NCBI GenBank assembly: GCA_018985225.1
Contig: JADGIF010000088.1
Location: forward strand, 1 to 21,806
Length of the DNA: 21,806 nucleotides
Reading direction: 5' to 3'
Source: Amoeboradix gromovi
Lineage: Eukaryota; Sanchytriomycota; Sanchytriomycetes; Sanchytriales; Sanchytriaceae
Shown here: piece by piece, positions 3,771 to 21,806 of the stretch
How positions within the stretch are numbered: the stretch's first letter is position 1
Layout of the letters: each line of letters starts with the position of its first letter
Translations under genes and position numbers: made by a program
Notes under the pieces: generated by a model
Databases searched by the model: none
Told to the model about the DNA's origin: nothing
The model's input: only the letters and a program-made list of their open reading frames with translations

Positions 3771-4063
3771 TGGGACATCAAATATAAAAACTAGACTAAC
3801 TTTCTGAAATAGTTTCAATCATTATATCAAGTGTGTATCAACCGATAGCAAATTAAATTAAATTAAATTAATCTGACTGATTGTACCTTTTGCTTAGAGA
3901 CTCAGAGACCTCGTATATTTGAAAGGGATAGTGGGTCATCTTGTTTTATTTTAAAGAAGGAATGACATTAATCAAAGAAGGACTTTTATTAATAATAGAA
4001 TTTCCTCCTTATGGAGCACCTGATTTAAAAACGGCTTGGTCTAGTCTTATATTTGGTGTCCCA
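3771..4063 (+). mobile_element. 293-bp MITE-like element with terminal inverted repeats
   Basis: The left end starts TGGGACATCAAATATAAAAA and continues CTAGACTAACTT (3771-3801). The right end is the diverged inverse, ending CTTATATTTGGTGTCCCA at 4063. The left 60 bp match the 'B end' also seen from 21422. The right 180 bp match the 'A end' at 1-157 and 19224-19405. It encodes no transposase. The 80-aa plus-strand open frame at 3941-4183 is an accident of the A-end sequence. No clear target-site duplication is visible. A short ATTAA pentamer run (about 3850-3871) lies inside. The superfamily is unassigned. Confidence 0.7.
3850..3871. repeat. ATTAA pentanucleotide microsatellite
   Basis: About four copies of a 5-bp AT-only unit, lying inside the 3771-4063 element between its B and A ends. 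Confidence 0.6.
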
Positions 4064-4401
4064 ACACTTGAAAGAAGAAATATAAAAAGTAATGAGTTCA
4101 CTGTTCGGTCAGTCAAGGAACTCTTCTCAGAAGCACCTACGAAGGAAGATGGGCATTGCACCGCTAAGATTAGCCCAGATTAGACAGGGTCAGATATGTG
4201 AAAGACAAACATCAGGCTCTGAGGAGTTCGACATTCTTACAGCAGGTTTCTGAGTATGTATATAATTGCACTTTATTGGGCAACATTGATGCAAAGCAAT
4301 TATTGGAAAGATATAGGCTACTAACATAAAATACAGCTCGATTGTTTTCTTGAATAAATCATTTATCGCGAATTTGTATGCATTTTTATATAATTTCGTG
4401 A

Positions 4402-4884
4402 CTTGATGGATGTAATCCCGAATATGTCAAACCTAAAGAAATAACTAACAGGTGCAGCATACATTCATCAACACTGAGGAACTGGTCCAAGCATGTAAGT
4501 ATTAGATGTTTTTCGACGCCAGGAAAGAGATATCTGCACAATTTATTCAAGGAACGCTTGAAGTTCAAATGTAAACAAAGAGGAAAGACGATGGTTGAAC
4601 GTAATGAAGCATATACTAGTCAGACATGTACAAGGTGCGGTTCCCTAAAGGAGACCAACTTAGAAACTTACACTTGTACCAATTTTCATTTGCAAATAGA
4701 TAGAGACCAGATGGCAGTAAGGAATATATACAAATATATGTATCCTTATTCAATTCCGGCTCAGGGTAGTGAAAGCGTGAGCAATCATTGTTACGGAGAT
4801 CTAGCATTGCTAGCTTCTATGTGGAAATTCTCGATTTTCTCGGAAATTGGGACTTTTAACAAGATGATAGAGAAAGAACCTTAG
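4402..4884 (+). pseudogene. IS607 TnpA N-terminus fused to TnpB/Fanzor C-terminus (deletion relic)
   Basis: The frame is open from the stop at 4399-4401 to the TAG at 4882-4884 (160 codons). Codons at about 4423-4536 read EYVKPKEITNR, then SSTLRNW, then STPGKRYL. This is the MerR-like helix-turn-helix layout at the N-terminus of IS607-family serine recombinases (TLR-W followed by a TPGGKR-Y wing; here one Gly is missing). Directly in frame comes the C-terminal part of a TnpB/Fanzor nuclease: FKCKQRGKTM, NEAYTSQTCTRCG (4603-4641, first zinc-ribbon Cys pair), a degraded second pair (C-T-N-F) and IDRDQMAVRNI (4696-4728) with the RuvC-III Asp. The recombinase catalytic domain, the RuvC-I/II motifs and any ATG near the start are absent. 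I infer an internal deletion in an IS607 element carrying a Fanzor2-type gene. A functional fusion is unlikely. Confidence 0.72.
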
Positions 4885-4923: not shown

Positions 4924-5013
4924 ACAGAAAGGTCATTGCCATATTTCGGATGAAGCACGCCAGTGTGCTCACTGTAACCTAGCTTAGGATAGAAATGTAA
5001 ATGCGTAATAGTC
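4924..5013 (+). pseudogene. Second TnpB/Fanzor C-terminal scrap
   Basis: One plus-strand frame reads KGHCH...ARQCAHC, then NLA, a stop codon, and DRNVNA. This matches the C-x2-C second zinc-ribbon pair and the DRD-x-NA RuvC-III motif that close TnpB/Fanzor nucleases. The in-frame stop, RuvC-III change (DRN) and short extent mean only a relic remains. It lies about 40 bp beyond the end of the first relic, so two nuclease copies, or a duplication, contributed here. Confidence 0.4.
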
Positions 5014-5188
5014 TGTTATAAAAGGCGTATTGAGCGATTGTCAAGGAAGAGGTACTAGTGACCGATTTTTCGCCTAGAATACAGGTTATATATTATGAAC
5101 TCTCCACTTGCTTAATTCTAACTCTGGACACATTTTTTTAAACTTTTTCAAGTTTTTGCAGAGCGTGTCGCAAAAGGAGATTATTGAA

Positions 5189-5843: not shown

Positions 5844-7367
5844 TTACTGGCTGTCGATGTTTTCTATTATTTTGGGTAAATTGGAATGGATTTCTTCTTT
5901 TATTGTAGATCCACTTACGATCCGTATCATATCTCTCAGAAATTCTGGATGGTGCAGTACATCTACATGCAGTGCTGAGTAGTTTCCATGTTCATATTCC
6001 TTAGTTATTACTTTGATATTGTCTGGATTGTATTTATTTCTCAGCCATGCAGATTTGCAGGTATATCCCAAGCTTGTCAGGCTAACTGATTGGTCACCAT
6101 CGAGTCCTTCGGAATAACCACCTTGCTTATATCCTAATCTGTTTACATCTGAATCAATGTCCCATTTTGACCCTCCATCTTTTAGAGCGTAACTCATGTC
6201 GCTTGGTGTGCCTATCCCATATGTACAGTATATGGTATAGTTTCCAGCAGGTAGTTTTGACGCTAATGGATTTGCCCAACCAGCCTCTGTAGAGTCTACT
6301 TCTCCCCCTCTTAAATTTAAAGATTTCGCAAATTTTTGCATGCTTGGGTGTAGCTTATCCAAAATTCTACCTTGAACCTCATTAGCAGTTATAGCAGATC
6401 TTGGCTCACCATTTTCAAATATAGTAAACACCTGACCACCGGCTCTTTGAGTAAAGTTGCTTTGTGGGTCATTGTATTTCAATGGGTTATAGGTTCTATT
6501 GCCCCAAATACGATTACCGCCCATTGGGAACACAGAATAATAACTTCTAAAGTGGCTTAAGGTTTGCTGCCTCTTGTCAGTGTCCATAACTAGGTCCATT
6601 ACGGATTTAACAGCGCCAGAAGCCGTCTCTTTGATATAACCAGTTAAAACAGCTGATATGCCTCTAACAGTCCCTAAGAATGGAGTGCCATTAGATATCC
6701 AAGCATGAACATTCTTGTTCATCCAGTTGGCATCCAAGTTGGTAATCCATTGAATGAAATAAAGATTCATATTACCACCCATAGAATGAGATATAATAAC
6801 CGCTTTTTCCTTAGTTTTTTTTACCATTAGCTCAATCTCATTTTTCATTTTACTGAAAGTATTGTCGCGCTCTTCCATCATTGAGAATGACAGTCTCCAG
6901 TCGAATGGGACCATCCCTATCATACTTGGGTCGTATCCTATTGTTGCCAAGTTGGCGATCAGATGGGCCCAAACAGGATAACCGCCGAGAAAGTAGTCTA
7001 TGCTTTCGAATCCACGAGACGCTCTAACTTTATAACCGCTGGGCGAATCTCTGCCGTTTTCAGGATCCAAATCCATGTAGTCTAATACGCAATGACCATC
7101 AAGTAGCCACTTGTAAAAGCCCGACATTTTAGACCATATTGTCATTCTAAAATACTTGCCCAATCTTCCCTCGCAAGAGTCTTTTTTAACACTCCATGAT
7201 TCTAGTTTACTAGTAAGTAATCCAGGTATCAATAGAACAGGATGCTTCGGTTTCTCAGTCATATTAATAGCAGGGTAAAATACAGAAGAATGTGAATAAC
7301 CTAAACCGACAGTAAGCCAGTGATCCAACTGCGAGAGGATGCTAAAAGCGCAAAAAAAGATTAACAT
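5844..7367 (-). CDS. Phospholipid:diacylglycerol acyltransferase (PDAT/LCAT family)
   Basis: A 507-aa alpha/beta hydrolase of the LCAT/PDAT family. It transfers an acyl chain from the sn-2 position of a phospholipid to diacylglycerol to make triacylglycerol, usually at the ER. Visible landmarks are the oxyanion-loop segment HPVLLIPGL (42-50), the family block DYFLGGYPVWAHLIANL (124-140), FDWRLS (155-160), the nucleophile elbow SHSMGG with Ser195, the acid Asp425 in GDQSVSL, and His467 in ALHVDV. Yeast Lro1 is longer (661 aa), mainly at the N-terminus. Here the N-terminus is short with a weak hydrophobic stretch (about residues 2-23), so a membrane anchor is not certain. The ATG at 7367 is the only reasonable upstream start. 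Confidence 0.92.
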   Translation of the reverse strand: MLIFFCAFSILSQLDHWLTVGLGYSHSSVFYPAINMTEKPKHPVLLIPGLLTSKLESWSVKKDSCEGRLGKYFRMTIWSKMSGFYKWLLDGHCVLDYMDLDPENGRDSPSGYKVRASRGFESIDYFLGGYPVWAHLIANLATIGYDPSMIGMVPFDWRLSFSMMEERDNTFSKMKNEIELMVKKTKEKAVIISHSMGGNMNLYFIQWITNLDANWMNKNVHAWISNGTPFLGTVRGISAVLTGYIKETASGAVKSVMDLVMDTDKRQQTLSHFRSYYSVFPMGGNRIWGNRTYNPLKYNDPQSNFTQRAGGQVFTIFENGEPRSAITANEVQGRILDKLHPSMQKFAKSLNLRGGEVDSTEAGWANPLASKLPAGNYTIYCTYGIGTPSDMSYALKDGGSKWDIDSDVNRLGYKQGGYSEGLDGDQSVSLTSLGYTCKSAWLRNKYNPDNIKVITKEYEHGNYSALHVDVLHHPEFLRDMIRIVSGSTIKEEIHSNLPKIIENIDSQ

Positions 7368-9248
7368 GTTTAAAAGTGTGACTTGACCTCCTGTTGTAAA
7401 ATGAGGATACTGGATGTGAACACATCCAGGAGTTATTGATTGGCAAATGAGAAACCTACTCCTTGTAAAAGTCCAGATTTACGATAAACTCAAGAATATC
7501 CACAGAAACTAAAAAAGGCAAAAACTCTGTTGCAGCTGTCGGTCGCAATTCTCTATCCTGAGGCCGTATAAATTAGGTTCATATACTTCAAGTATAAATT
7601 ATTTGCTGTAAAGTGGTCTCTATCTAATTCCAACATCTTTGATATCTCAAGTGCCTGGGAAGCCCTTAGACATTCGCTGATCTTGGTTCAATGGCCTCTT
7701 TTTGTTTGCCGGATGTGAGTCTAGCATATAAAATGAGAACTCTTAAAGAAGTTGAAGAAAGATAAAGCAGTTCTTGAATGTACAGCAAACTCTATAAGAG
7801 TCTTTTGCTGGTGCTGAGATGCATCGGATGGGTTATGAGTAAAATCATGTTCTGCATTATTAGCAATTCCATTTGTTTGACGTATTATAGTAGAAACAAT
7901 TTGGACCCATTTGCAATTGATGAAAAGAAACAAAATAGAGTTTTATGCGGCTGAAGTCTAGAAAGAAAGCACATCGTAGCGATATAGCCTGTGTAACCAC
8001 AATAGATGACTTATTGAATTAAAATTAATAGCTCTTTGGAATTAAGTAGGTATACTGAGTGCTAAAGCGTCATTAAGATTGTCTGGTAAGATTTGTACTG
8101 CATGGATACTTTTTCTTTCGTTGCCTTCTCGCAAAAAAAGCAGATAGCAATGAGTTACTTTATCAAATTTTTAACGCGGTGTGTATTTTTGTCATCATAA
8201 AACCCAACATGTGCGAAAATAAATGTACTTTGAATTCCTCTTTTATGCCTGCAGAGTTTCCAAACGTGTTGTGCGAGATGCACCAGTTGGTCAAGCAAGT
8301 AAGGATTAGTACTTTGGAGCTCTATTCGGCGGTTTTGTTGCGCATAGAAACCGAAAGTCAGGTTTCACGCGAAAAATATTTTTGTGCAATCCAATCGAAA
8401 ATCTGAAGCTTTGCTTTAGATGTTTCGAACACAACTTGGTTATTCATTACAATCGTTCTTTGGGCCACACTGGAAAAAAGCCCAAACTGCATATCAGGAT
8501 GGGACCTTTGAGATTGTCTCATTACATCAGCGCATCCAAGCTCTTTGCTTCAAACTTGTTTTTCATGCTTAGTCAAATAAACGTGTACAACATTTTCTAG
8601 GCTAATACCAGTGTTGCTATCCCGATTAAAGACTTTCGTACAGCGTTCAATTTCCAAAAATTTTGATCATCTGTCCTACAGTGCTGAATATCTGACTTAA
8701 TTCTTTCAAGTACCTCAGGAGTAAATTATGATATCTCCTTGTAGGATTGAACGGTAATTAAACGATTTTCGTTCTTCCTTCAAATTCATGATGATTATAT
8801 AAACCAATGCCGTGTTCAAGATTTGCAAGCGTAAAGGAGGTAAGAACTATGGCTGCAAGTATGATAGTCTTACTGATCTTACTATCAGACTCAATAAGTT
8901 GAAATAGTTCGACTTCAATCACGCATTTTCAGCAGTTACATGAAGTGCCTCCAAATCCTCGTTTGGCCTGCTTTCGCAGTCTGAGACGATTTACATTAGC
9001 TTCTTAATCTTAATATCCAAGTGAAATTTATCTAAAACCTATAATGGCTGCTTTTGCTATAACACGAGATGAAACTACACAACCTCCGCAAGACTTATCT
9101 CCACAAAATAACACGGTTCAACTCAATTGAACCAGAAGCAGTGAAACATCAATAATTCTAGATGATTCTCCTATTTATCTTAAGTGGTGTAAAATATTCG
9201 TTAATTAATTCAATTATTTAGCATTAATTTTTCAAACCTCGTGTGACT
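7368..9248. other. 1.9-kb region without an assignable gene
   Basis: There is no recognisable tRNA, snRNA or conserved protein. Plus-strand frames at 8179-8406 (75 codons) and two overlapping frames at about 8382-8600 have coding-like amino-acid composition, for example SLQSFFGPHWKKAQTAY at about 8452. They change frame repeatedly, as expected of a decayed gene. The helical 'HQLVKQVRISTLELYS' part of the first could be the N-terminal region of a Fanzor-type protein, but I cannot support that by motif. The minus-strand open frame at 7721-7933 looks non-coding. The 5' regions of the PDAT gene and the thioesterase gene lie here. Confidence 0.35.
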
Positions 9249-12624: not shown

Positions 12625-15360
12625 TTATGGTATATCATTAAGTGCACGTTTCTGGCTGTATAGCGATTCCTTGGAAGCATGCGCAGATGGTAGTTTACCA
12701 TTGAGGTTACCATTGGATTCGATAGCAAGGAATTTAGCCTCGGAAGCTTGTCTCTTAGTCTTAGCAACGCTATCCGCGGTTTCTGAAGCTCTTCTACCTC
12801 TCAATGTACCTTTCTTAATAGGGCCCTCAATCATTAGATCAGCTACAGTTTGCAGAGCGGCAGTCCATGCTTCTTCGGTTTCGTAGTCAAATTCGGCCAG
12901 CAATATATCCCTTAGCGTCTTGATTAAACAGCTAGTGAGCTTATAATACATTTCCGGTTTAACACCCCAGTCCTCGTGTTGCTTCCCTAGTTCCCTGATC
13001 TTTTCCTCGTTTTCATCCAGGAATTCGAACTTTTTAACAACAATACTTAGCAATCCACCAAATGCTTTTGACTGACTAAACACATCAGGAAAAAATTTAA
13101 CGAAATCTTTGTCTTCTGTAAATAAGTTGTCATAGTACTTGTAACTAAAGATTGTGGTCGGGTTTTTTTGATATTCTAACGTATCTTTTGGGAAATGATT
13201 CAAAGTGATAGATTTAGTGTCTATTTTTAAAAGTAATATTCTTTCCCAACTGCGGGTTATTATTTTCACCTGCAATGGCGATAGCCTGCATACGAATGAT
13301 TTGGTAGGTCGGGATAACATAGTGTTTGTATCGGCCCTCCTCCTCACTCTCGGACCTTCGATTAAAAATGTATTTATTATGTCAGCTGCCTCGCGCCATG
13401 CAAATTTAGAGTAAGTGTCAAAAGTATCAATCAGAAATTCTTTTAATGTTGATATCAAACATTTGGTTTGCCATTCGTAATATTCTGATTTCATCATCAT
13501 TTGCTCAGATTGCTTTCTTCCTTGCTCTCTTATCTTTTCCTCATAATACTCTAAATATTCTATTTTCTCAGTTATGTTGAATATCATACTTCCGAATTCT
13601 TTTTTTTGCTTCTCCACAGAATTGTAAATCGATGAAAGCTCAGGATGTTCCCAACACAGATTATCGAAATACTTGATCGCAAAGATAGTTTGCATTTTAA
13701 GCTCGCTCTTGTTTTGACCTTGCAACAATAGTTGATCATTGCATTTAAACTTGAAAGAGGTAATCGGGATGTTTTTGGTCAATACCGTTTCCCATGTAGC
13801 ACGTATTCTTTCCAATTTTTCAGCAGAAAACTGGCCAGCTACTACGCTCCCAAAACCATCTTCGTTTTGCTGATTCATCTCTTTTTGCCCTTCAGCCATC
13901 ATTTGAATTATATTATCGATACAAGTCTTCCAAGACTTTAGCAGGTTCACAGAGAGCTTGTCAAGCAAAAATTCTTGAAGAGTTTTAATTGTTGCATCTT
14001 TGATCTTTGCAAATACTGAGAACGATAATTTGAACTGTTCCAAGTGAAATTTACCCAGATTCTTTGCAAACCGAACAAAATCCTTGGTATCCTCATATTT
14101 CACCAAAATGACATCAAACAAGCCATTAAACATTCTGGCTAATGAAGCATAATCTGCGAAATAATATCTAAAAGACGGATTTTCAAAAAATAAGGAATCA
14201 TACATTTTAAGGGTGAAATACTCTAAATTTGATGGCGCTGGGTTCTTGTCAAACAAGAGCTTCATGTCATACGTTTTAAATTTTAGCCTTTTAGGATCTA
14301 AATTCATGTTTTTAACTAGCTCCCAAGACCTTCTCATGTTACGCAGTTCCACTTGAGATATCTGATCCCCAGTCTTGTCTATTGAACTGCGATGCACAAT
14401 ATCCTTCTCATTTGCACCTTCAACCATCATATTAATAATAGTTGCGAAACCGTTTTTCCATGCTCTTTTAGCTGTGAACCCAAACGAGTCTCCAAGAATA
14501 ATATCGAAAGTCTCAATTAAACTATCACTAAATGCTTCCAAATTCTTTTTTTCAACCTGATATTCCTCTATGTGTCGTCTGCCTAATTTTTTGAAGTAGT
14601 AATTGTTTTCTTCAAGTCTATTTGATTTTGTTATCATTGCGTCTATCATTCTTGTGAATGCTTTACGTTGCGTGGATTCATCGGGAAACATAGCAGCTAG
14701 CGTAGGGTCAGTTTTGAATAATAAATCATAAAACTTGAAACAAAATATGGTAATAGGATCATTTTTCCTATTGCTACCATTTAACATTTTCTTCAGATCT
14801 TCGTTAACCAGTGTAATGCTCTCTGGTACTAATTTCAGTGCCAAAACCATATCCCATGGTTTTTTCATGCTCTCATTGTTTCCTTTTTTCTTATCAAAAA
14901 CCAGCTGTGTTAGAGATCGTCTTTTTCTTTCTGATTTGGTTCCAACAATTTGAGATGTTACGTCGGTCAAAGACAACTTCCAACTTTGCAACTGATCGAT
15001 GGATATCTTGTCTTGCAATGTATTTTCTAACACTAATATAAAATTATCCACCCAAGTTGCAAGTAAAATAGGATTTAAATTACCCAATATTATCTTGAGG
15101 TTGTCTATCCTATTACCGTCCACGGTCTTCAATATTATTCCCACTATATCCAGCAATGACTTGATTAAATCAGTGTTTAGATAGGATTTAATTTCCTGGA
15201 ATTGATTAATAACGTTATCCAAACTCAATAACATAAAAAACATCGCGTTATCGCATTCAAACTGGCTTTTGTCGATGTTTTCCAGTTGTATCCTATCAAA
15301 GTTGAAGTCTAATATCAACTTCCAAATACTATTCATAACCTCCACTGGTAAAGTAGACAT
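12625..15360 (-). CDS. Five-domain globin-fold protein (multi-globin)
   Basis: A 911-aa protein of five globin-like repeats at about residues 1-140, 165-318, 335-492, 510-672 and 690-850, plus a basic, Ser/Ala-rich tail. Repeats 2-5 share the pattern: helix A with Trp, FxxKxYDxLF, a CD-corner Phe, then exactly 32 residues between the E7 and F8 positions, and a closing helix with AW or SW. Proximal F8 His is present in repeat 2 (H263), repeat 3 (H439) and repeat 5 (H795). It is replaced by Gln617 in repeat 4 and apparently Asn96 in repeat 1. E7 is Gln in repeats 2, 4 and 5 (231, 585, 763) and Leu407 in repeat 3. So three repeats could bind heme and two probably cannot. Role (O2 storage, NO chemistry, sensing) is unknown. 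There is no signal peptide or membrane segment, so it is probably cytosolic. No introns are needed. Confidence 0.85.
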   Translation of the reverse strand: MSTLPVEVMNSIWKLILDFNFDRIQLENIDKSQFECDNAMFFMLLSLDNVINQFQEIKSYLNTDLIKSLLDIVGIILKTVDGNRIDNLKIILGNLNPILLATWVDNFILVLENTLQDKISIDQLQSWKLSLTDVTSQIVGTKSERKRRSLTQLVFDKKKGNNESMKKPWDMVLALKLVPESITLVNEDLKKMLNGSNRKNDPITIFCFKFYDLLFKTDPTLAAMFPDESTQRKAFTRMIDAMITKSNRLEENNYYFKKLGRRHIEEYQVEKKNLEAFSDSLIETFDIILGDSFGFTAKRAWKNGFATIINMMVEGANEKDIVHRSSIDKTGDQISQVELRNMRRSWELVKNMNLDPKRLKFKTYDMKLLFDKNPAPSNLEYFTLKMYDSLFFENPSFRYYFADYASLARMFNGLFDVILVKYEDTKDFVRFAKNLGKFHLEQFKLSFSVFAKIKDATIKTLQEFLLDKLSVNLLKSWKTCIDNIIQMMAEGQKEMNQQNEDGFGSVVAGQFSAEKLERIRATWETVLTKNIPITSFKFKCNDQLLLQGQNKSELKMQTIFAIKYFDNLCWEHPELSSIYNSVEKQKKEFGSMIFNITEKIEYLEYYEEKIREQGRKQSEQMMMKSEYYEWQTKCLISTLKEFLIDTFDTYSKFAWREAADIINTFLIEGPRVRRRADTNTMLSRPTKSFVCRLSPLQVKIITRSWERILLLKIDTKSITLNHFPKDTLEYQKNPTTIFSYKYYDNLFTEDKDFVKFFPDVFSQSKAFGGLLSIVVKKFEFLDENEEKIRELGKQHEDWGVKPEMYYKLTSCLIKTLRDILLAEFDYETEEAWTAALQTVADLMIEGPIKKGTLRGRRASETADSVAKTKRQASEAKFLAIESNGNLNGKLPSAHASKESLYSQKRALNDIP

Positions 15361-15539
15361 GATGTTTGGTGGCTTGAAGAAATAAATAAGCTAGTTGCAT
15401 GACGGTAAGTATACCGCTATCTGTATTCTAATTCTTCTTTTCATAGCTTTTTACTACCCTCATGTCTTGATTCAAAATTAAATATTACGATCGTCATATA
15501 TATGCGGTGAAACATGATCAAAGTTTATTTATTATTTCC

Positions 15540-18730: not shown

Positions 18731-19223
18731 TGAATTCAATCTCGAGATCAAGATCTTCCCCTGGGTCTCTTATTTGTTTACGTGACATTAAAGATTACAA
18801 AGAGAAGTTAAATCAACGATATAAATTAAATTTATTTTTTTTAACCTACCAAGAAATTCCACATGGGAGCCATTTTAGAAAATGTCTGCAACTCTAAGTC
18901 AAAAGACCTCCTGGAAAGATTTGTCCCATAATATGCTACCAAGCCTTTTCTTAATATTAAAATGCACTGAAAATATCTCTTTCAAAATAACTTTGGCTGA
19001 TTAGCACTTTAGCTTATGCTGCAACTCTTCAACGTATAACCATTTCCATACTCTGTCTTGCTATTTATAATCTCGTCTTGCTCACAAACAAGGTAGCACC
19101 TGGATGTCTTTCTTTCGCACCTGATGAAATGCGGATGTTGGATTCCTAGTGTGGTTTCTAGATGTTCATCCTGCTTTGAAATGAGCACGTTTTTTCAGAA
19201 TGGGCTTCACGCATTACATCTTA
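18731..19223. other. Intergenic region, one unassigned open fragment
   Basis: It is AT-rich. On the minus strand, about 19190-19009 is open for 60 codons without an ATG and includes HPHFIRCERKTSRCYLVCEQ, which has protein-like composition but no family I know. It may be more of the adjacent nuclease relic or chance. Confidence 0.3.
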
Positions 19224-19740
19224 TGGGACACCAAATATAAAAACTAGACTAACTTGTTTTTAGAAGAAGTGCTCCATATGGAGGAAATGCTATCATTAAT
19301 AAAAGATCTTCTTCTATTATACCAATTTTCTTTCACTACCTTCAATCCCCTCTTCAAAATAAAAGTAGAAGACCCTGCATCTCGTTCAAATATGAGGTCT
19401 TTGAGCATCTAAGCAAAAGGTGCATTTTCTTAGACGGTACTCTTTTCTAGTGTCATTTTGTAATGTTATACTAACATCATTACTCTTATCTATTTCTTTG
19501 AAGTGTAATAGTGATATTTTATTTGAAATAAAGATTGGATGAAAGAGTAAGAGAAAAGCTGTACAAAATATTTATTTTTGAGATTTCGACACAAAAAGTT
19601 ATTTATTTTCCTTTTATACTCGTCAACTCCGCAACTAGCTGAATGTCCACTCGCTTCTTGAATCCATAAAATTAATGGAGCTGAAATAATGTTCCAAGTT
19701 GTTACAGAAAGTTAGTCCAGTTTTTATATCTGATGTCCCA
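19224..19740 (-). mobile_element. 517-bp MITE-like element with TIRs (A end + B end)
   Basis: The left terminus starts TGGGACACCAAATATAAAAA; the right terminus is its inverse and ends TATATCTGATGTCCCA. The left about 180 bp equal the 'A end' (1-157 and 3888-4063, inverted). The right about 222 bp equal the 'B end' (21422-21642, inverted). The middle (about 19406-19518) is specific to this copy. It has no coding capacity. The two unrelated subterminal regions show the element has distinct left and right ends, as autonomous transposons do. Flanking bases show no convincing target-site duplication. Confidence 0.75.
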
Positions 19741-19988
19741 CATGTAAGACCTAGAATAAAATGGACCTTGTATCAATACATCGTCTTCCGCTACTTAATT
19801 TTATCGGCTATAATGCAGTTCAAGCCCATATCACTAGTTCAAGAAATCCATCAAAATTATTAGTTGTCCATTCCTCCTAACGCCTACGTTAAATGTGAAG
19901 AATTCGAAAATCATGAAGATTTCAAACCTCACACTTCTCAAGTGTAGACAACTTGGGGAGATACCATTTGAGCATGTTCTTGCCTACA

Positions 19989-20240
19989 TTATTTTGAAGT
20001 ACCTGGATTGATATCTCTATGGTCTTGGTGACCGCATTGCTGACAATTAAGGTAAGTTATGGTAGAATAGGCCTCATTAATAATCAATAAACTTTGACCA
20101 TACAACTTACATTTATGCGTGTAATGACGCAACGATTGAATCCTTTCATAACGCTTGCAGCTACTACAAGTGTTGGACACATCATATTGTTTTTGAATGG
20201 TCACAACTCTAATGAACTTTGAGTTCTTTTCATTTCGCAT
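19989..20240 (-). pseudogene. TnpB/Fanzor C-terminal fragment
   Basis: A minus-strand frame reads HYTHKCKLYGQSLLIINEAY, then STITYLNCQQCGHQDHRDIN. The KCKxYGxxLxxxNEAYST segment before a C-x2-C-G is the stretch that joins RuvC-II to the zinc ribbon in TnpB and Fanzor2 proteins, and it parallels the copy at 4564-4641. Upstream in the same frame is another C-x2-C (NTCSSCKRYER). HRDIN after the second pair may be a collapsed RuvC-III. The frame ends after GTSK; the next frame continues NVGKNMLKW. No RuvC-I or recombinase part is visible. This is a degraded copy. Confidence 0.58.
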
Positions 20241-20380
20241 ATTCTGATGCGAAAAAATTGCTCCAAGTCGTGGATCTGCAAAGTGTTGAATGGTGACAAA
20301 ATACCAGTACCAATAAAAAGATGTCCTATGATATTGAGAGTTGTTTATTTTTTGTCTTTTTCACTTTCACGCCAACGGTC

Positions 20381-21334: not shown

Positions 21335-21421
21335 GGTGAATCTGGGTAGAAATTAATTTATCAATTGCACCAGGCACAATGATTGGTTTCTCTTGAAAAA
21401 ATTTCAATTCATTGAAGCATA

Positions 21422-21806
21422 TGAGACATCAAATATAAAAACTAGACTAACTTTCTGTAACAACTTGGAACATTATTTCAGCTTTATTACTTTATGGATT
21501 TAAGAGACGAGTGGACATTCAGCTAGTTGCGGAGTTGGCGAGTATAAAAGGAGAATAAATAACTTTTTGTATCGAAATTTCAAAAATAAATATTCTGTAC
21601 AGCTATTCTCTTGCTCTTTCATCCAATCTTTATTTCAAATAAACCTCTGATTCATAATACCAACTCATAGTACTGATTCTTAATACCAACTCATAGTACT
21701 GATTCATAGTACTAATTCATAATACTGATTCATAATACTGATTCATAATACTGATTCATAATACTGATTCATAATAGGGTATATTTTCATTTAAGAACTA
21801 TCCAGA
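21422..21806 (+). mobile_element. B end of another TIR element, running off the window
   Basis: It starts TGAGACATCAAATATAAAAA (one change from the TGGGACATC consensus). Over about 221 bp it is a near match to the inverted copy at 19518-19740, including the TTGGAACATTATTTCAGCT and CTAGTTGCGGAGTTG blocks. After 21642 it diverges into a tandem repeat. The matching A end would lie outside the window. Confidence 0.7.
21647..21776. repeat. Tandem repeat, ten 13-bp units
   Basis: Ten exact-length units fill 130 bp. Units 1, 7, 8, 9 and 10 are CTGATTCATAATA. Units 2 and 4 are CCAACTCATAGTA, alternating with CTGATTC(A/T)TA(A/G)TA variants. The identical copies at the right side point to recent expansion there. 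It lies at the inner edge of the transposon B end. Confidence 0.9.

Follow-up and report, generated by a model that had tools for sequence, protein, structure and literature searches.

Non-autonomous derivatives of DNA transposons and of bacterial insertion sequences (MITE-like elements) keep both ends, have undergone internal deletion and occur in high copy number with decayed coding remnants. The element analyzed here, located in a window of 21,806 nucleotides of Amoeboradix gromovi DNA (the whole stretch that was analyzed), belongs to a family that shares all of these properties. It differs from MITE-like elements in the lack of terminal inverted repeats above chance, in a presumed serine recombinase instead of a DDE transposase, and in its remnants, which consist of an HTH and a nuclease C-terminus.

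The closest described systems are the IS607-type elements with Fanzor2 (Bao and Jurka, 2013, PMC3627910; PMC10711439; here and below, both papers are cited for the passages concerned). The insertion of IS607 uses matching dinucleotides, and the fingerprints of Fanzor are a DPG motif at RuvC-I and a catalytic Glu that precedes the zinc ribbon by six residues (PMC10711439, in part). The window element resembles these systems in its TnpA-like HTH, in a Fanzor C-terminus that includes the zinc ribbon and the alternative Glu, in the AG at both ends without inverted repeats or target duplications above chance, and in longer relatives within the genome that carry DPG and an IS607 TnpA. In contrast to them, the element has neither a recombinase catalytic domain nor the Fanzor RuvC-I and everything upstream of it, and it is 532 bp long and belongs to a family of about 260 copies. 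Other non-autonomous mobile elements associated with Fanzor are the Fanzor1 elements CRe-1, CRe-2 and CRe-3 in Helitrons (PMC3627910, in part) and the SfAV Fanzor1 element (PMC10711439, in part). In those, Fanzor1 is found within other transposon types, whereas the present family holds the C-terminal piece of Fanzor2 alone, with IS607-like ends. Among the literature matches listed, neither a published high-copy non-autonomous IS607-Fanzor2 family of a eukaryote nor a study joining "Fanzor" and "Sanchytri" was found.

With a probability of roughly 0.92, the element at 4333-4864 is a high-copy non-autonomous IS607-Fanzor2 deletion derivative and not a small DNA-binding gene. The observations behind this reading are the common ends and junction, the copy number, the missing catalytic parts, the longer relatives and the neutral decay. 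The ancestor would have been a eukaryotic IS607 transposon encoding TnpA (a serine recombinase) and the Fanzor2 nuclease, from which most of Fanzor and the catalytic domain of the recombinase would have been lost by an internal deletion, leaving the left end together with the TnpA HTH codons, and the right end together with the C-terminal codons of Fanzor. TnpA made elsewhere would have bound both ends in trans, and the copies would have been inserted at an AG dinucleotide without target duplication. By analogy to IS607, mobilisation in trans by TnpA is probable. A guide-RNA scaffold used by a Fanzor supplied in trans may still be encoded in the right end; as an RNA-guided nuclease, the window element itself would be without most of the protein, and the RNA fold of its right end is a predicted one.

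Ends, copies and domains of the element

The coordinates of the element and its parts are compiled in Table 1. The copies share the start given there, and their flanks are near random except that purines are preferred directly ahead of the left end. Many copies end with ...TTTTAACGAGGAG, and the window copy ends with ...TTTTAACAAGA. The best-kept 29-mers of the element are located in the left end, starting at 4345-4350, and are exact in 22 of 47 copies at 4345 and 4346.

Table 1. Positions of the element, its parts and a second derivative in the window.
Feature	Position	Strand	Basis or remark
Complete short element of 532 bp, class A copy	4333-4864	+	blastn boundaries common to many copies; ends of 48 copies
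Left end (LE)	4333-4404	+	begins (R)CAGCTCGATTG
Spacer between LE and HTH piece	4405-4428	+	length and sequence vary among copies
Open frame of the HTH-TNB fusion	4402-4884	+	160 codons; last 20 bases are flanking DNA beyond the element
MerR-like HTH of IS607 TnpA	4420-4545	+	frame aa 7-48; hhalign to TnpA N-termini
Deletion junction TnpA HTH / TnpB/Fanzor "FKERLKF"	4545-4546	+	class A compared to class B copies
Fanzor C-terminus	4546-4740	+	aa 49-109; PF07282, E 1.2e-16; residues counted in 48 copies
Alternative RuvC-II Glu (E of NEAYTSQTC)	codon 4606	+	Ealt definition from PMC10711439 (in part)
Zinc ribbon	Cys codons 4627, 4636, 4675; fourth site codon 4684	+	fourth site is Phe in the window copy
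RuvC-III Asp	codon 4699	+	kept in the window copy
Right end (RE), possible guide-RNA scaffold	4741-4864	+	hairpins predicted
Second derivative, other IS607-Fanzor family	19878-20248	-	PF07282, E 1.2e-6

Allowing up to three mismatches, 262 matches to a left-end 29-mer and 264 matches to a right-end 35-mer were found in 6.78 Mb of the A. gromovi genome, corresponding to a family of about 260 copies or ends, and the reversed-pattern controls of both motifs gave 0 matches. The protein search of the genome with the frame resulted in at least 154 matches. Copies with the junction of the window element were designated class A, those with a different junction that retains more of Fanzor class B. A first locus set contained 48 end-to-end copies (31 class A, 13 class B and 4 others), and the enlarged set used for the comparisons comprises 48 class A and 33 class B copies. 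The junction at 4545-4546 is common to all 48 class A copies collected. The source is a SPAdes assembly in single-cell mode (PMC8371127, in part), which would speak for a chance in-frame repeat or an assembly chimera with no element behind it. This explanation is contradicted by independent flanks, as the identical junction occurs in 48 copies with differing flanks in those examined, and by the number of matching ends (about 260, compared to 0 in the controls), so that its probability is practically negligible.

At the right end, AG was identified in 68 of 86 copies; at the left end, counted singly, A was found in 65 and G in 69 of 80 copies. In 48 copies, neither the flanks nor the ends compared in inverted orientation were more alike than shuffles or internal pieces (one pair shares 5 bases). 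The lack of target duplications and terminal inverted repeats above chance is as expected for IS607. The AG target was inferred from the composition of the ends, since no convincing empty insertion site was present among the loci searched, the one candidate listed being a self match. In two copies (L045 and L057), right-end-like sequence is located immediately before the left end, which, judged from the sequence, suggests that they were inserted at, or next to, the end of a different element. Hairpins in the right end were predicted by RNA folding; covariation gave no support (2 double changes, where shuffles averaged 2.5), and a comparison to Rfam up to an E-value of 5 was without a match.

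The frame extends from stop to stop, with TTG as the first codon after the stop and without ATG at its start. Its residues 46-109 match the Pfam family Cas12f1-like_TNB (PF07282) above the curated cut-off, and the NCBIfam models guided_TnpB (E 1.1e-11) and IS607_TnpB (E 9.8e-6) match the C-terminal part below their cut-offs. The sequence NEAYTSQTCTRC fits the pattern of the alternative RuvC-II Glu of Fanzor2, which consists of E, six residues and CxxC (PMC10711439, in part). The predicted zinc ribbon is present, but the window copy does not hold the complete set of four cysteines with the RuvC-III Asp: the ligand sites read C, C, C and F with the Asp kept, whereas the fourth site is a Cys in 41 of 48 class A copies.

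For the HTH part as a single sequence, no decisive profile match was obtained (RacA 0.071; MerR 0.22), because it is too short for such searches. When eight HTH rows were scanned singly, NF033518 transpos_IS607 was matched by two (best E 0.012), Xre-MbcA-ParS_M by three (best 0.0017) and the BldC HTH family, which was matched better, by five (best E 1.7e-4). These mixed matches show that the rows represent an HTH, and IS607 is not singled out by them. The alignment of the eight HTH copies was then compared to the N-termini of five IS607 TnpA proteins from this genome, which resulted in an hhalign probability of 96.8 (E 2.6e-10). When four of the eight HTH rows were used, the score was 51.0, and the highest score among 100 column shuffles was 23.7. 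No match to the serine recombinase catalytic domain was found in the frame in profile scans. The original prediction that one open frame joins the HTH of an IS607 TnpA to the C-terminus of TnpB/Fanzor thus holds (hhalign 96.8; PF07282, E 1.2e-16). Of the separate profile checks proposed for the two halves, that of the TnpB/Fanzor part was positive, and that of the HTH was positive as an alignment, with nothing decisive for the single sequence.

Longer relatives and the internal deletion

The genome contains 13 matches to IS607 TnpA, 7 of which are above the curated cut-off. Locus L054 combines a TnpA with one stop and an open frame of 672 codons containing Fanzor, and L053 an open frame of 245 codons containing TnpA and a Fanzor with one stop. 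The serine recombinase catalytic domain is present in L053, L054 and others. A DPG motif at RuvC-I was identified in six Fanzor relatives (L053, L054, L036, L091, L035 and the C61 relic). The RuvC-I region is deleted from the window element, and DPG is known from the relatives, including the C61 relic that shares its TNB and right end. The closest solved structure to the Fanzor of L054 is the TnpB-like protein L79 (9b0l, E 3.9e-16), which we take to be the mimivirus Fanzor2.

The C61 relic runs from RuvC-I into the TNB and right end of the family, with an identity of 87.0% to the window copy and 91.6% to a class B copy. As it continues into these parts, it represents the Fanzor of the parent, and among the loci searched it appears, by its sequence, to be the only representative. 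At this locus (L052; contig C61, about 7345-8180), the parent-family Fanzor relic adjoins a TnpA fragment on the opposite strand, apparently as a rearranged IS607 element. The genome search suggested earlier thus recovered numerous protein matches and longer relatives, but no full-length element with the left and right ends of the family was present among the loci searched (6.78 Mb). By comparison with L054, the deleted length would be about 1.6 kb.

An internal deletion could be shown directly in another family. The second derivative in the window consists of a TnpA start (20248-20175) joined to a TnpB C-terminus (20140-19878) on the minus strand, and it aligns to two places of the C68 relic L035 that lie about 1.5 kb apart, with an identity of 79% over 72 bases at one and of 81% over 286 bases at the other. 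It arose independently of the element at 4333-4864. A frame of 123 codons at 19989-20360 (-) joins its TnpA start and TnpB end in one frame. The IS607 gene order and the origin by internal deletion, both part of the original prediction, are supported, the latter by the deletion seen against L035, and so is the view that an IS607-Fanzor2 element was once active in a eukaryote. The prediction had further assumed one deletion at one place: the deletion itself stands, a single event at a single site does not, as the family has been amplified to about 260 copies.

Coding capacity of the fused frame

The frame had been described as conserved for 160 codons, with a small DNA-binding product as a possibility. 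It is open in the window, yet an open HTH part was found in 9 of the 48 class A copies, an open TNB part in 16, and both in one frame in 3. The singletons are distributed over the three codon positions as 24:25:28 (HTH), 40:45:47 (TNB) and 35:24:30 (tail) for the 48 copies, and as 22:26:21 (HTH) and 34:42:37 (TNB) for 31 copies. From these sequences, the private changes of the copies are judged to be neutral.

Maintenance of the frame as the gene of a small protein that binds DNA or has a regulatory role, derived by domestication or acting as a repressor of transposition, would explain that the window frame is open for 160 codons despite its rank of second among 48 copies in private changes over 4429-4864 (13, compared to a mean of 6.2). 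Against such a gene, these changes, read in this frame, are 12 non-synonymous to 1 synonymous, with 5 in the tail beyond the conserved domain; in addition, a zinc ligand is lost, the frame starts without ATG, and HTH variants present in three or more copies are distributed as 15:18:17. Purifying selection on the HTH-TNB frame was not found, either in the changes of the window copy or in the shared HTH variants, and a maintained fusion gene is very improbable. The conserved HTH-TNB gene was rejected as a candidate on the basis of the few copies open throughout, the neutral private changes and the zinc ligand lost in the window, and the in-frame join most likely encodes no maintained protein. 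The fusion itself is thus confirmed, and its original interpretation is supported in part, because the frame is not conserved and the family is amplified. The remnant is matched by 40 predicted proteins of EukProt, which is a warning for annotation.

A different picture was obtained for the TNB part when variants present in at least three class A copies were analyzed. By codon position, these were distributed as 15:14:40 (p = 8e-5), and 34 of 69 were synonymous compared to an expected fraction of 0.21, a value taken from the comparison of 31 copies; the tail gave 12:13:13. The contrast between HTH and TNB depends on the sharing threshold, with p-values for the third position of 0.31 (at least two copies), 0.015 (at least three) and 0.014 (at least four), and for synonymous against other variants of 0.54, 0.064 and 0.078, respectively. 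In class B, variants found in at least 2 of 33 copies were distributed as 8:7:20 in the upstream Fanzor piece, 14:14:34 in the TNB, 25:33:25 in the 5' part and 17:16:9 in the tail. The 41 TNB variants that each of the two classes contains in two or more copies gave 8:7:26, those of class A alone (at least three copies) 3:4:11, and those of class B alone (at least two copies) 4:5:4 (n = 13). These distributions show coding constraint in the Fanzor part among shared variants and none in the HTH. The constraint in the TNB would be unexpected under a purely non-coding history.

It could be due to a maintained mini-protein of the Fanzor C-terminus with the zinc ribbon and the RuvC-II/III residues, best preserved in class B and with an effect on transposition or the guide RNA, the HTH being an irrelevant remainder. 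The skewed shared variants of both classes fit to this explanation, as do several class B copies with an open frame of about 144 codons. Conversely, the variants of class B alone are unskewed, singletons are neutral, the zinc ligand C2 is altered in 11 of 48 class A copies, and in 19 of 48 the stretch of the element from the last stop to the Glu codon contains no in-frame ATG. Overall, a mini-protein is considered unlikely, though clearly less so than a gene for the entire fusion. A nuclease-dead Fanzor lineage was suggested by the LP[E/S]F column, which is a Ser in all 33 class B copies. It was rejected, because the window has the catalytic Glu at the position described for Fanzor, six residues ahead of the zinc ribbon (PMC10711439, in part).

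Mixing of copies and neighboring features

For the region 4546-4864, the tree of the copies contained 20 changes of the class label, compared to a mean of 26.1 and a minimum of 19 in 500 shuffles; for the tail alone, 19 changes were found with a shuffle minimum of 18. The nearest neighbor belongs to the other class for 23 of 48 class A and 8 of 33 class B copies. The two classes are thus strongly mixed in this region, with some association left. An apparent separation of the classes (2 changes) was false, as it came from a tree including 21 class-defining bases.

Linkage between common sites of class A (n = 47) decreased with distance: r2 was 0.18 at up to 10 bases, 0.063 at 11-30 bases and 0.026 at 161-300 bases, where the floor 1/n is 0.021. 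A similar decay was observed for class B (0.193, 0.092 and 0.034). An unrelated inverted-repeat family of this genome (MITE control; 26 rows, among which L115 and L006 are cuts of one place) was used for comparison. Compared to class A, it comprises a smaller number of copies and sites, with 20 common sites in 294 bases compared to 70 in 532 for 26 class A copies. The correlation of linkage with distance was -0.162 in the control (18 of 1000 permutations as low) and -0.375 in class A (0 of 1000), so that the control shows a weaker trend, and linkage at long range is also low in the control.

Classes with different middles largely share their 3' halves, and from the sequences compared the copies resemble a pool in which sequence is exchanged; both the number of copies and the mosaic character of the family are unusual. 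The pattern is read as exchange among copies, with the coding constraint inherited from Fanzor-coding members. Homoplasy, short-range multi-base mutations or assembly artefacts may also have contributed to the linkage pattern. More specifically, ectopic gene conversion in a pool of about 260 copies, perhaps induced by Fanzor breaks via right-end RNAs, might reshuffle the 3' Fanzor part between short elements and longer ones, which is a doubtful proposal at present. If it were true, the RuvC/zinc-ribbon constraint would persist in elements unable to encode the nuclease, while the HTH drifts. The family suggests that a nuclear genome can harbor hundreds of short copies amplified from a serine-recombinase transposon of prokaryotic type. 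The longer TnpA/Fanzor relatives together with the recombined-looking variation make it testable whether Fanzor aids persistence or sequence exchange.

Several other features were observed in the window. Just downstream of the element, the third frame at 4955-5030 (+) contains CAHCNLA*DRNVNA, which resembles another zinc ribbon/RuvC-III remnant; the motif had no convincing match among the relatives compared. A diverged RE-like remnant at 7454-7732 (-), with 68% identity over 7462-7623, overlaps the upstream end of a stop-to-stop LCAT frame. An inverted-repeat MITE copy of about 290 bp with terminal repeats of about 30 bp is located at 3771-4064 (+), and MITE pieces are also present at 1-161, 19219-19749 and 21411-21659. 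Of 600 first-look MITE candidates, 40 were scored, and the other 39 are 79-88% identical to the window copy. Seven of the ten window frames scanned match Pfam families, including LCAT, G-alpha, globin, Nic96 and HLH. The globin domains are found as two matched stretches in a frame of 921 codons at 12628-15390 (-).
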